Source: Dehalococcoidia bacterium (GTDB lineage Bacteria; Chloroflexota; Dehalococcoidia; Lucifugimonadales; Australimonadaceae). Taken from it: a stretch of 49,743 nucleotides of DNA. The notes under the pieces are model-generated. The model ran no database searches. It was not told where the DNA came from and saw only the letters and a program-made list of their open reading frames with translations. Shown one piece after another: positions 11,674-14,165 of the stretch (position 1 is its first letter; every line of letters starts with the position of its first letter). Both the position numbers and the translations under genes were made by a program. The DNA is taken from NCBI GenBank assembly GCA_022449765.1, contig JAKUPZ010000013.1:1-49743 (forward strand), read 5' to 3'.

Positions 11674-12900
11674 ATGGCGAATATCGCCGCATTACGTTGC
11701 AAAGAATGCTCACGTGAGTATCCCGTTGGTGCTTTCAATGTCTGTGATTTCTGTTTCGGACCATTAGAAGTGGTCTATGACATGGATGCTATTGCACAAG
11801 TAGCTAGTCGAGAACGAATCAAATCCGGACCTTTAAGCCTGTGGCGATACGCTGACTTCTTACCTGCTGATTACAATCCAAATATTGATATAAACGCAGG
11901 GTTTACTCCATTAATCAGGTCAAACGGATTAGCGAAAAAATTAGGCTTGGATGAACTCTGGATTAAGAATGATAGCGTTAATCCCTCCTATTCATTTAAA
12001 GACAGAGTTGTAGCTGTAGCTACAGCAAAAGCTCTAGAGCTTGGATTTGATACTATCGCATGTGCATCTACTGGAAATCTTGCGTGCTCCGTTGCAGCCC
12101 ACGCCGCTCGTGCGGGAATAAAAGCTTATGTATTCATCCCTTCTGATCTTGAAAAAGGGAAGGTTCTTGGAGCTGCAATATACAACCCTACCATGATCGC
12201 AATCGATGGTAGCTACGATGACGTAAATCGACTCTGTAGTGAATTAGCTGATCAGTATCCATGGGCGTTTGTAAACATCAATGTACGTCCATTTTATGCT
12301 GATGGGAGTAAGACTCTTGGATTCGAAGTTGCAGAGCAATTAGGTTGGAAGGCTCCAATGCATGCTGTTGCTCCTTCAGCCTCTGGAGCTATGTTTACCA
12401 AAATCTACCAAGGGCTCAAAGAATTTGAGCAAGTTGGTATTATTGATAATGTCGAAACAAAAATGCATTGTGCCCAAGCTCGCGGTTGCGCACCTATTGC
12501 CACAGCTTACGAGGAAGGCAGGCTTGTAATACGCCCTGTCAAACCTGCGACAATAGCAAAATCTCTTGGAATTGGAAATCCTGCGGACGGATATTATGCT
12601 CTCAAGACAATTGAAGCGTCAGCCGGCTCAGCAGTTATCGCCGAAGAGGCTGAAGTTGCCGATGGTATAAAATTGCTGGCTGAAACTGAAGGCATCTTTA
12701 CCGAGGGAGCTGGTGGGGTAGCCATCGCTGGATTAAAACGCCTTGTTGAACGGGGAGAGATCAAAAAAAATGAATCTACAGTCGTCTATATAACTGGAAA
12801 TGGACTGAAAACAACTGAAATTGTTGAAGATGTAGTTAATCCTATTCACATAAACCCAACAGTCTCGGCTTTTGAAGAATCTGTAGGTCTTAAGGCATAG
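11674..12900 (+). CDS. thrC: Threonine synthase-like PLP enzyme with N-terminal zinc ribbon
   Basis: This is a fold-type II PLP enzyme of 408 residues. A zinc ribbon with C9, C12, C24 and C27 opens the protein, followed by the PLP lysine K109 in NPSYSFKDR, the phosphate loop region ASTGNLACS, and ITGNGLKT near the end. The family reference activity is threonine from O-phosphohomoserine. A GGGGG ribosome site precedes the ATG. The next genes encode a NIL-domain protein and a CysO-like sulfur carrier, a setting that also fits a sulfur-amino-acid role, since CysM-type PLP enzymes use such carriers. Sequence favours threonine synthase; context leaves cysteine or homocysteine formation open. Confidence 0.85.
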   Translation: MANIAALRCKECSREYPVGAFNVCDFCFGPLEVVYDMDAIAQVASRERIKSGPLSLWRYADFLPADYNPNIDINAGFTPLIRSNGLAKKLGLDELWIKNDSVNPSYSFKDRVVAVATAKALELGFDTIACASTGNLACSVAAHAARAGIKAYVFIPSDLEKGKVLGAAIYNPTMIAIDGSYDDVNRLCSELADQYPWAFVNINVRPFYADGSKTLGFEVAEQLGWKAPMHAVAPSASGAMFTKIYQGLKEFEQVGIIDNVETKMHCAQARGCAPIATAYEEGRLVIRPVKPATIAKSLGIGNPADGYYALKTIEASAGSAVIAEEAEVADGIKLLAETEGIFTEGAGGVAIAGLKRLVERGEIKKNESTVVYITGNGLKTTEIVEDVVNPIHINPTVSAFEESVGLKA

Positions 12901-12901
12901 T

Positions 12902-13147
12902 ATGAGTCCATTAAAGCGCGTACGTTTTACTTTCTTAGACAGGCTAATCAAAGAGCCCGTAATTTATCGCATGGGTCATGATTACAATATTATTACTAAT
13001 ATTAGACGTGCAGATGTGCAGGAAGGTGTTGGCTGGGTAATTTTAGAAATTGAAGGCGATGTAAGTGAAATTGAACGTAGCCTAGAATGGGTACGCTCAC
13101 TTGGAGTGAGAGTAGACCCTGCTCTGGGCGATTTAGTCGAACCTTAG
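12902..13147 (+). CDS. NIL-domain protein
   Basis: This is an 81-residue alpha/beta protein matching the NIL (ferredoxin-fold) domain, best known at the C-terminus of the MetN methionine importer ATPase, where it binds methionine. Typical segments are RVRFTFLDRLIKEPVIYRM, YNIITNIRRADVQEGVGWVILEIEG and the EIERSLEWVRSLGVRVDP tail. It stands alone here, one base after the PLP enzyme, and precedes a sulfur-carrier gene. Free-standing NIL proteins occur with sulfur-transfer genes in other microbes, so a role in sulfur amino acid synthesis or sensing is plausible. Confidence 0.8.
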   Translation: MSPLKRVRFTFLDRLIKEPVIYRMGHDYNIITNIRRADVQEGVGWVILEIEGDVSEIERSLEWVRSLGVRVDPALGDLVEP

Positions 13148-13166: not shown

Positions 13167-13445
13167 ATGAGCGTTATTGTTCGAATTCCAGGTCCGCTTC
13201 GAAAAATTACTGATGGAGCAGATAAGGTGGATGTAACTGCCGACAATTTGAAGGGATTGATACATGAATTGGATAAGCAATACCCTGGAATAAAAGACCG
13301 AATTTTAGATGAAAACGAAGATTTAAGATATTTCGTCAATCTTTATCTCAATAATGAAGACGTGCGTTTCTTGGATGGTTTATCCACTTCAGTCAAATCT
13401 GGTGATGAGGTCAGTATAGTACCTGCAGTTGCAGGAGGCTGTTAG
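13167..13445 (+). CDS. CysO/MoaD/ThiS-like sulfur carrier ending Gly-Gly-Cys
   Basis: This is a 92-residue ubiquitin-like sulfur carrier. The segments YFVNLYLNNEDVRFLDGL and VSIVPAVAGG closely follow the CysO type used in cysteine synthesis (carrier thiocarboxylate plus CysM). The mature form of such carriers ends in Gly-Gly. Here an extra Cys92 (TGT) follows G90-G91 before the stop, so the C-terminus must be trimmed before activation, for example by a Mec/JAMM protease, which is not in the window. The start has GTAGG upstream. It sits in an operon with the PLP enzyme and NIL protein, and 21 nt before the selenoprotein-like gene. Confidence 0.85.
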   Translation: MSVIVRIPGPLRKITDGADKVDVTADNLKGLIHELDKQYPGIKDRILDENEDLRYFVNLYLNNEDVRFLDGLSTSVKSGDEVSIVPAVAGGC

Positions 13446-13466: not shown

Positions 13467-14165
13467 ATGAGCCTCAACGAAAGCGATCCTGAATACAATG
13501 AGCGTGAGCTCGCCGAAATTGAAGAGTTAAATCGCCTAAGCGACCACAACCCCGAGATTACTAAAAGCAAGCTTTGGAGACGCTTAACTATTTTTGTAGC
13601 GGTAGTAATAGTTTGCTCACTTTTGCTTCCAATTGCAGCGCTGATATTTAATAGTAGCAATAGCACGACCAGCGGTCGGGATGAAGTTAGAACCTCGACC
13701 AATATTCCTACTCCAAATTTTGAACTCATTGATACCAATGGTCATTCGATCAAATTATCAACGGAACTTGAGAACAATCCCGTAGTAATTCTTATATTTT
13801 ACCGAGGCTTTTTCTGAGGAGTTTGCCAAAGCCAACTCGTAGAGCTGGAAAAATACAAAGCACCCATCAAGGAAGCGGGAGGTCGACTACTTGCAATAAG
13901 TGTTGATGACTTATCGCAGGCTAAGGCTATGCAAAAAGCAACTTCTGCATCTTTCCCAATTTTATCTGATGCAGAAAAGAAAGTATCAAACGCCTACGGA
14001 GTTTATAATTTACTTGGTGATGGGGTAGCTGCCCCTTCAATATTTTTAATTTCAAAAGATAAGCTTATTGGTTACTACGTAGGCTCGCATATCAGCGATC
14101 GAATTGAAACAAGTGAATTATTAAAGATTTTGGAAGAGCATACTTTAAAAGGCCGTGACGCCTAG
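13467..14165 (+). CDS. Peroxiredoxin-like candidate selenoprotein (in-frame TGA = Sec117)
   Basis: Reading through one TGA (13815-13817) gives 232 residues. Residues 1-36 are acidic and cytosolic, 39-63 form one membrane helix, and the rest is an AhpC/TSA-type thioredoxin-fold domain outside the membrane. The redox loop reads FYRGFF-U-GVC, where family members have a Cys in the first position (YRGxWCPxC), so Sec117 and Cys120 form a UxxC pair. Downstream of the TGA the frame stays open and conserved-looking (LAISVDDLSQAKAMQ, FPILSD, VSNAYGV, PSIFLI) to a normal TAG. A SECIS-like hairpin follows the TGA. Other genes here use TGA as stop, so the code is standard. The alternative is a nonsense-mutated pseudogene. 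The stop overlaps aroKB by 4 nt. Confidence 0.85.
13815..13848 (+). promoter_or_regulatory. Candidate bacterial SECIS element
   Basis: Downstream of the TGA at 13815-13817, CCA-A-CTC (13832-13838) pairs with GAG-C-TGG (13842-13848) around a GTA apical loop at 13839-13841, with one A-C mismatch. The loop begins 21 nt after the TGA and its first base is G, which fits the published geometry of bacterial SECIS hairpins. A competing hairpin, GAGTT (13819-13823) with AACTC (13834-13838), also exists. Confidence 0.5.

Follow-up and report, generated by a model that had tools for sequence, protein, structure and literature searches.

The locus at positions 13467-14165 (+ strand) of a contig from a Dehalococcoidia bacterium, analysed over a stretch of 49,743 nt (hereafter the window), raises the question of whether a TGA lying inside a long open frame acts as a stop or is read as selenocysteine (Sec). 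The frame comprises 232 codons followed by TAG, and its sole in-frame TGA is codon 117 (13815-13817, + strand), in the context FYRGFF-U-GVC. The explanation favoured here, to which a probability of roughly 0.9 is assigned, is that the locus encodes a UxxC selenoprotein, with Sec insertion directed by a SECIS element, which would work as an anchored, outward-facing oxidoreductase or peroxidase of the thioredoxin type. The complete gene would specify a membrane-anchored, peroxiredoxin-like protein of 232 aa, carrying Sec at residue 117. Standard gene callers would miss it, yielding either two false genes or a stub of 116 aa.

A match to the AhpC-TSA domain (Pfam PF00578; residues 82-203, 1.3e-24) runs uninterrupted across the TGA, and its score of 86.9 bits lies above the gathering cut-off of 26. 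The reading of the frame and the unbroken domain match both agree with the initial annotation, in which a single TGA had been placed in an open frame of 232 codons. Compared with the orthologue from the same genus (L018, 65% identity), differences in first, second and third codon position number 33/24/65 upstream of the TGA, and 35/7/65 downstream. The latter pattern indicates that the downstream half evolves as coding DNA, under a constraint at least as strong as that acting on the upstream half. A pseudogene, or an ordinary nonsense mutation, in which the TGA terminates translation and leaves two non-functional halves or two distinct genes, would account for the in-frame stop, and could also appeal to the weak folding of the window's own hairpin when taken alone, but is at odds with such strong constraint past the TGA, and with the data on homologues and on the Sec machinery reported below.

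Homologues were searched for in 147 related genomes, and the search was extended across the phylum. Nearly all of the best matches in the 147 genomes feature exactly one TGA inside the match. Dozens of homologous genes with one TGA were identified within the order, more throughout the phylum. At the site of codon 117 (FYRGxFUGxC), TGA is found in 97 distinct homologous domains (U..C) and Cys in 9 (C..C), and the Sec or Cys residue is always located three residues ahead of an invariant Cys. This residue, Cys120 in the window protein (13824-13826, + strand), forms the UxxC motif together with Sec117, and is conserved in 97/97 Sec rows and in 12/12 other rows, the latter being the 9 Cys rows plus 3 ordinary TxxC or TxxU peroxiredoxins. 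Two of the 9 Cys rows, L117 and L118, represent TlpA-type domains joined to the Prx-like domain and not that domain itself. The protein tree requires four changes of the Sec/Cys label. The TGA had been proposed to fall at the redox-active Cys site of Prx-like proteins, and the occurrence of TGA or Cys at this site in the homologues supports the proposal; random stops at codon 117 were looked for in the same set, and TGA or Cys was found instead.

Two genomes of the same taxonomic family (G005 and G010) have Cys (CKPC, CTGC) in the gene found at the same locus, next to ThrC and ThiS. These syntenic orthologues (L074 in G005, L069 in G010) lack, besides Sec, Pro190 and a DRP-like motif close to the C-terminus, and the joint loss suggests a change in function. 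L117, L118 and L130 are Cys forms from a different family within the phylum, and the first two carry a TlpA/ResA-type domain (FWASWCPAC) fused in frame with a Prx-like domain (FYRSAGCGSC). In genomes of the same order, UxxC Prx-like domains or genes also occur in tandem, two or three at a time (L067, L042, L054, L052), and each unit has a TGA and a downstream hairpin region to itself. A search of genome contigs for related loci revealed one distant relative only.

The genome containing the window measures 1.61 Mb and is 97% complete. The presence of selA, selB, selC and selD, suggested earlier as a check, was confirmed for all four: selA (537 bits), selB (350.9 bits), a tRNA-Sec gene (selC, at C16:20674, anticodon TCA, 68.9 bits), and selD (372.6 bits), the last having an in-frame TGA of its own in the active-site loop (CAGUAGK). 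The selD gene (L047, G000:C3:77325-78722), itself a selenoprotein gene, is directly followed by a gene for a JAMM/Prok-JAB protease. A second peroxiredoxin selenoprotein gene, of the TxxU type (FTGGUTSQ), resides in the same genome (L138 1432-1893; G000:C16:7188-7568). At least three selenoproteins are thus predicted to be encoded, the 13467-14165 product among them.

Retention of the TGA in the 97 domains across the phylum, existence of Cys orthologues and a full Sec machinery in the genome, added to the constraint described above, make the pseudogene interpretation very improbable; it was rejected, together with the two-gene interpretation, on the basis of the conservation of the TGA and of the constraint past it. 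Reading of the TGA as another amino acid, such as Trp, by a change of the code or leaky readthrough, is even less probable. It would explain the open frame, and nothing more. Of the 39 long genes in the window, 9 stop at TGA, and the genetic code is therefore not globally changed, as the initial annotation had maintained on the same grounds. Moreover, homologues lacking the TGA have Cys, not Trp, at the site, and both tRNA-Sec and SelB are present; recoding to Trp was rejected because of the Cys residues and of the TGA stops in the window. As judged from the DNA, 13467-14165 is one selenoprotein gene, neither two genes nor a pseudogene, and codon 117 almost certainly encodes Sec.

The hairpin assigned to the SECIS element spans positions 13832-13848 (+ strand), with a stem of seven positions (13832-13838/13842-13848) and the triloop GTA (13839-13841). 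The stem starts 14 nt and the loop 21 nt past the TGA; the distance of 21 nt, originally attributed to the start of the hairpin, holds for the GTA loop and not for the stem. Pairing was evaluated in 73 sequences at the seven stem positions (511 cells), against 1000 runs in which synonymous codons were redrawn from the usage of each gene. Paired cells number 468/511 (91.6%) versus 340±8 (max 364) in the reshuffled sets, and all seven positions are paired in 40 sequences, versus a reshuffled mean of 3.3. In Cys homologues, 66.7% of stem cells are paired, which corresponds to the shuffled level. Two silent sites, the third position of a Gln codon and the first of a Leu codon, covary (A-T 28, G-C 34, G-T 6, A-C 1; Fisher 2e-12), and the protein tree requires at least 24 switches of pair type. 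Independent contrasts on well-supported branches are about five, all concordant and none opposite, too few to be significant alone. The first loop base is G in 91/93 sequences. In the homologues, the hairpin downstream of the TGA is, by these comparisons, conserved beyond coding constraint. The silent-site covariation, with the TGA/Cys homologues and the four sel genes, sustains the selenoprotein reading originally advanced.

According to PMC13188914, the bSECIS model includes a loop of 3-9 nt with a G in the first two loop positions, located 16-37 nt from the UGA, an upper stem of 4-16 bp and an MFE <= -7.5 kcal/mol. The window hairpin falls within this model for loop size (3 nt), loop start (GU) and spacing (21 nt). 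Its stem is made by 3+3 pairs flanking an internal A.C mismatch (13835/13845), found only in the window gene among 87 comparable sequences; the one A-C case in the covariation counts is this gene. Folded alone with short flanks, the stem measures -4.6 kcal/mol (z -1.4), and the bare 17 nt -3.3; the value of -4.6 is to be compared with the -7.5 kcal/mol of the model, the region considered in the model possibly not being the isolated stem. The stem of the same-genus (sister species) orthologue has 7 pairs and measures -8.4 kcal/mol. When a stretch of 47 nt is folded alone, another hairpin is preferred (z -0.8), which is no better than shuffles, and Rfam searches of the whole window at gathering thresholds matched tRNAs alone. 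The hairpin is therefore established only through the comparison of homologues. The mismatch may be a tolerated one, a sequencing error, or an early weakening of the element.

In the protein, an acidic tail (codons 1-36; 13467-13574, + strand), whose segment NERELAEIEELN is kept in several genera of the taxonomic family according to the alignment, is followed by a predicted transmembrane anchor (codons 37-62; 13575-13652, + strand; hydropathy 3.07, modelled as helix 35-61), whose start bears KSKLWRR, and by a redox domain of the peroxiredoxin fold (codons 75-228; 13689-14150, + strand), delimited by the Pfam match and the structure model. The membrane anchor of the initial annotation is retained as a predicted helix conserved in the taxonomic family, and its topology was deduced. 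The charges flanking the helix (KSKLWRR) and the lipoprotein-type N-termini of most relatives would place the redox domain outside, so that the protein is probably N-in, C-out, with the domain outside the cytoplasm. Most relatives outside the taxonomic family have N-termini with a lipobox-like cysteine, as IFAVSCASPES, which suggests an outside, membrane-attached location for these as well. The AlphaFold2 model, obtained with 36 family sequences, has a pLDDT of 89, and the modelled domain matches peroxiredoxins of known structure at Z 21-23, the best being Bcp4.

In alignments with peroxiredoxins, Sec117 stands where the TxxC motif has Thr/Ser, Cys120 coincides with the peroxidatic Cys, Arg113 with the Pro of the motif, and Pro190 with the active-site Arg. 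The early placement of the Sec at a redox Cys is refined accordingly: Sec117 corresponds to the Thr/Ser site, and it is Cys120 that corresponds to the peroxidatic Cys. The active-site Arg is found in 0/97 Sec rows; Pro is there in 71, and absent from the other 26. Of the classical signature (PxxxTxxC plus active-site Arg), the Cys alone is kept. The domain is best described as a predicted peroxiredoxin fold bearing a thioredoxin-type UxxC pair.

Two mechanisms were weighed. In a true peroxiredoxin mechanism, Cys120 would attack peroxides, and Sec117 would be the resolving residue. The alignment of Cys120 with the peroxidatic Cys of Bcp, PrxQ and AhpE points this way, as do the top structural matches, which are Bcp4 and 2-Cys peroxiredoxins at the Z values given above. 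Sec, however, normally sits where nucleophilic attack happens, the signature Thr and Arg are gone, the Pro of the motif is Arg, and the active-site Arg is missing throughout the Sec rows. In addition, in the Sec peroxiredoxins of the TxxU type it is the Sec that occupies the peroxidatic position (PMC13188914). The true peroxiredoxin mechanism is accordingly rated as rather unlikely. Loss of the Thr and Arg favours a thioredoxin-like selenol oxidoreductase mechanism, which is the most likely one on comparative grounds, and the coupling of the fold to a thioredoxin-type UxxC pair makes attack by Sec, with Cys120 as resolving residue, the preferred inference.

In the favoured explanation, the hairpin starting 14 nt past the UGA would recruit SelB with Sec-tRNA(Sec), and the complex would insert Sec at residue 117. 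Sec117 would attack a disulfide or a peroxide, Cys120 would then close a selenenylsulfide, and electrons would come from a membrane reductase resembling CcdA, from a thioredoxin-like partner, or from both. The protein would be overall a thiol:disulfide oxidoreductase or a thiol peroxidase, of the Trx/ResA type on a Prx fold. A CcdA-like membrane protein with a VNPCG motif was identified in the genome (Pfam score 19.8, below the cut-off of 27.1 bits), and could be the electron source. The low score of this match, and the 26 Sec rows without Pro at position 190, weigh against the scheme. The specific catalytic role assigned to Sec117 and Cys120 is put forward with somewhat better than even confidence.

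UxxC Prx-like selenoproteins had been said to be known from ocean metagenomes, and this is correct. A 'Prx-like' UxxC selenoprotein has been described from the Sargasso Sea (PMC1088965), 225 sequences make up 'Prx-like 1' (pfam00578, UxxC) in the GOS data (PMC2398784), and a 'Prx-like thiol:disulfide oxidoreductase' figures in PMC13188914 as a selenoprotein predicted with high confidence. The window protein shares with these PF00578, UxxC, a SECIS right past the UGA and Cys homologues. It differs in having a transmembrane anchor, a conserved acidic tail and a location in a ThrC-NIL-ThiS cluster. Reported neighbours of Prx-like genes are AhpD-like genes or a DsbC fusion (PMC1088965, PMC2398784 and PMC13188914); neither a membrane anchor nor a ThrC-NIL-ThiS context was found described in this small set of papers. 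A literature search for SAR202 selenoproteins found nothing.

Among known systems, ResA/TlpA proteins resemble the window protein in the N-terminal anchor, the probably extracytoplasmic thioredoxin-type site (CxxC/UxxC) and a Pro near the site. In contrast, motif spacing and nearest structures of the window protein are those of peroxiredoxins, and the match to ResA (NF002854) is weak (47 bits versus a curated cut-off of 170). Bcp, PrxQ and AhpE have the same fold and a peroxidatic Cys that Cys120 matches in position, but the window protein lacks their Thr and Arg, and has Sec three residues ahead of Cys120. The best NCBIfam match is the selenoprotein L/SelL-related family (NF040769), also a Prx-like selenoprotein, but the score is 51.8 bits versus a cut-off of 120, and SelL features UxxU in place of UxxC.

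The gene is preceded, on the + strand, by genes encoding threonine synthase (ThrC, first in the conserved cluster; 11674-12900; TIGR00260, 275 bits), a small NIL-domain protein (12902-13147; PF09383, 8.8e-14), and a ThiS/MoaD/SAMP1-like sulfur-carrier or modifier protein ending in GGC (13167-13445; PF02597, 6.7e-16). The gaps separating the four genes measure 1, 19 and 21 nt. ThrC and ThiS, also recognized by synteny, are found upstream in 13/13 loci examined from the same family, those of the Cys orthologues included, and in 0/2 loci examined from other families; the count of 13 covers ThrC and ThiS, and the NIL gene is known from the window locus. The predicted selenoprotein gene is fixed in a thrC–(NIL)–ThiS–Prx cluster within the taxonomic family. 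A special role for the terminal GGC was considered and rejected, relatives of the ThiS-like protein ending in GG, GGA, GGS, GGF or GGR. The window ThiS-like protein ends in GG plus one residue, and a protease of the JAMM/Prok-JAB type might trim such an end. A redox domain lying outside would be unlikely to have a direct chemical link with a cytosolic sulfur carrier. The selenoprotein might conceivably serve, in this taxonomic family, as a dedicated partner of ThrC-NIL-ThiS, acting through Sec as a redox sensor or reductase and linking, by way of its conserved cytosolic tail, the redox state outside the cell to the metabolism of cysteine/homocysteine/threonine or of protein modifiers; this is a speculative, and on balance doubtful, proposal.

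Marine members of the enzyme family have been described before; the probably outward-facing anchor and the fixed position in a sulfur-carrier gene cluster are less familiar. The locus provides a genome context, in terms of Sec machinery, cluster, anchor and synteny with Cys orthologues, for selenoproteins known largely from marine metagenome fragments. Within one phylum, UxxC Prx-like selenoproteins occur commonly, and often in the form of lipoprotein-like proteins or tandem paralogues, and the ThrC-ThiS locus offers a clean natural comparison of Sec and Cys at a single site.
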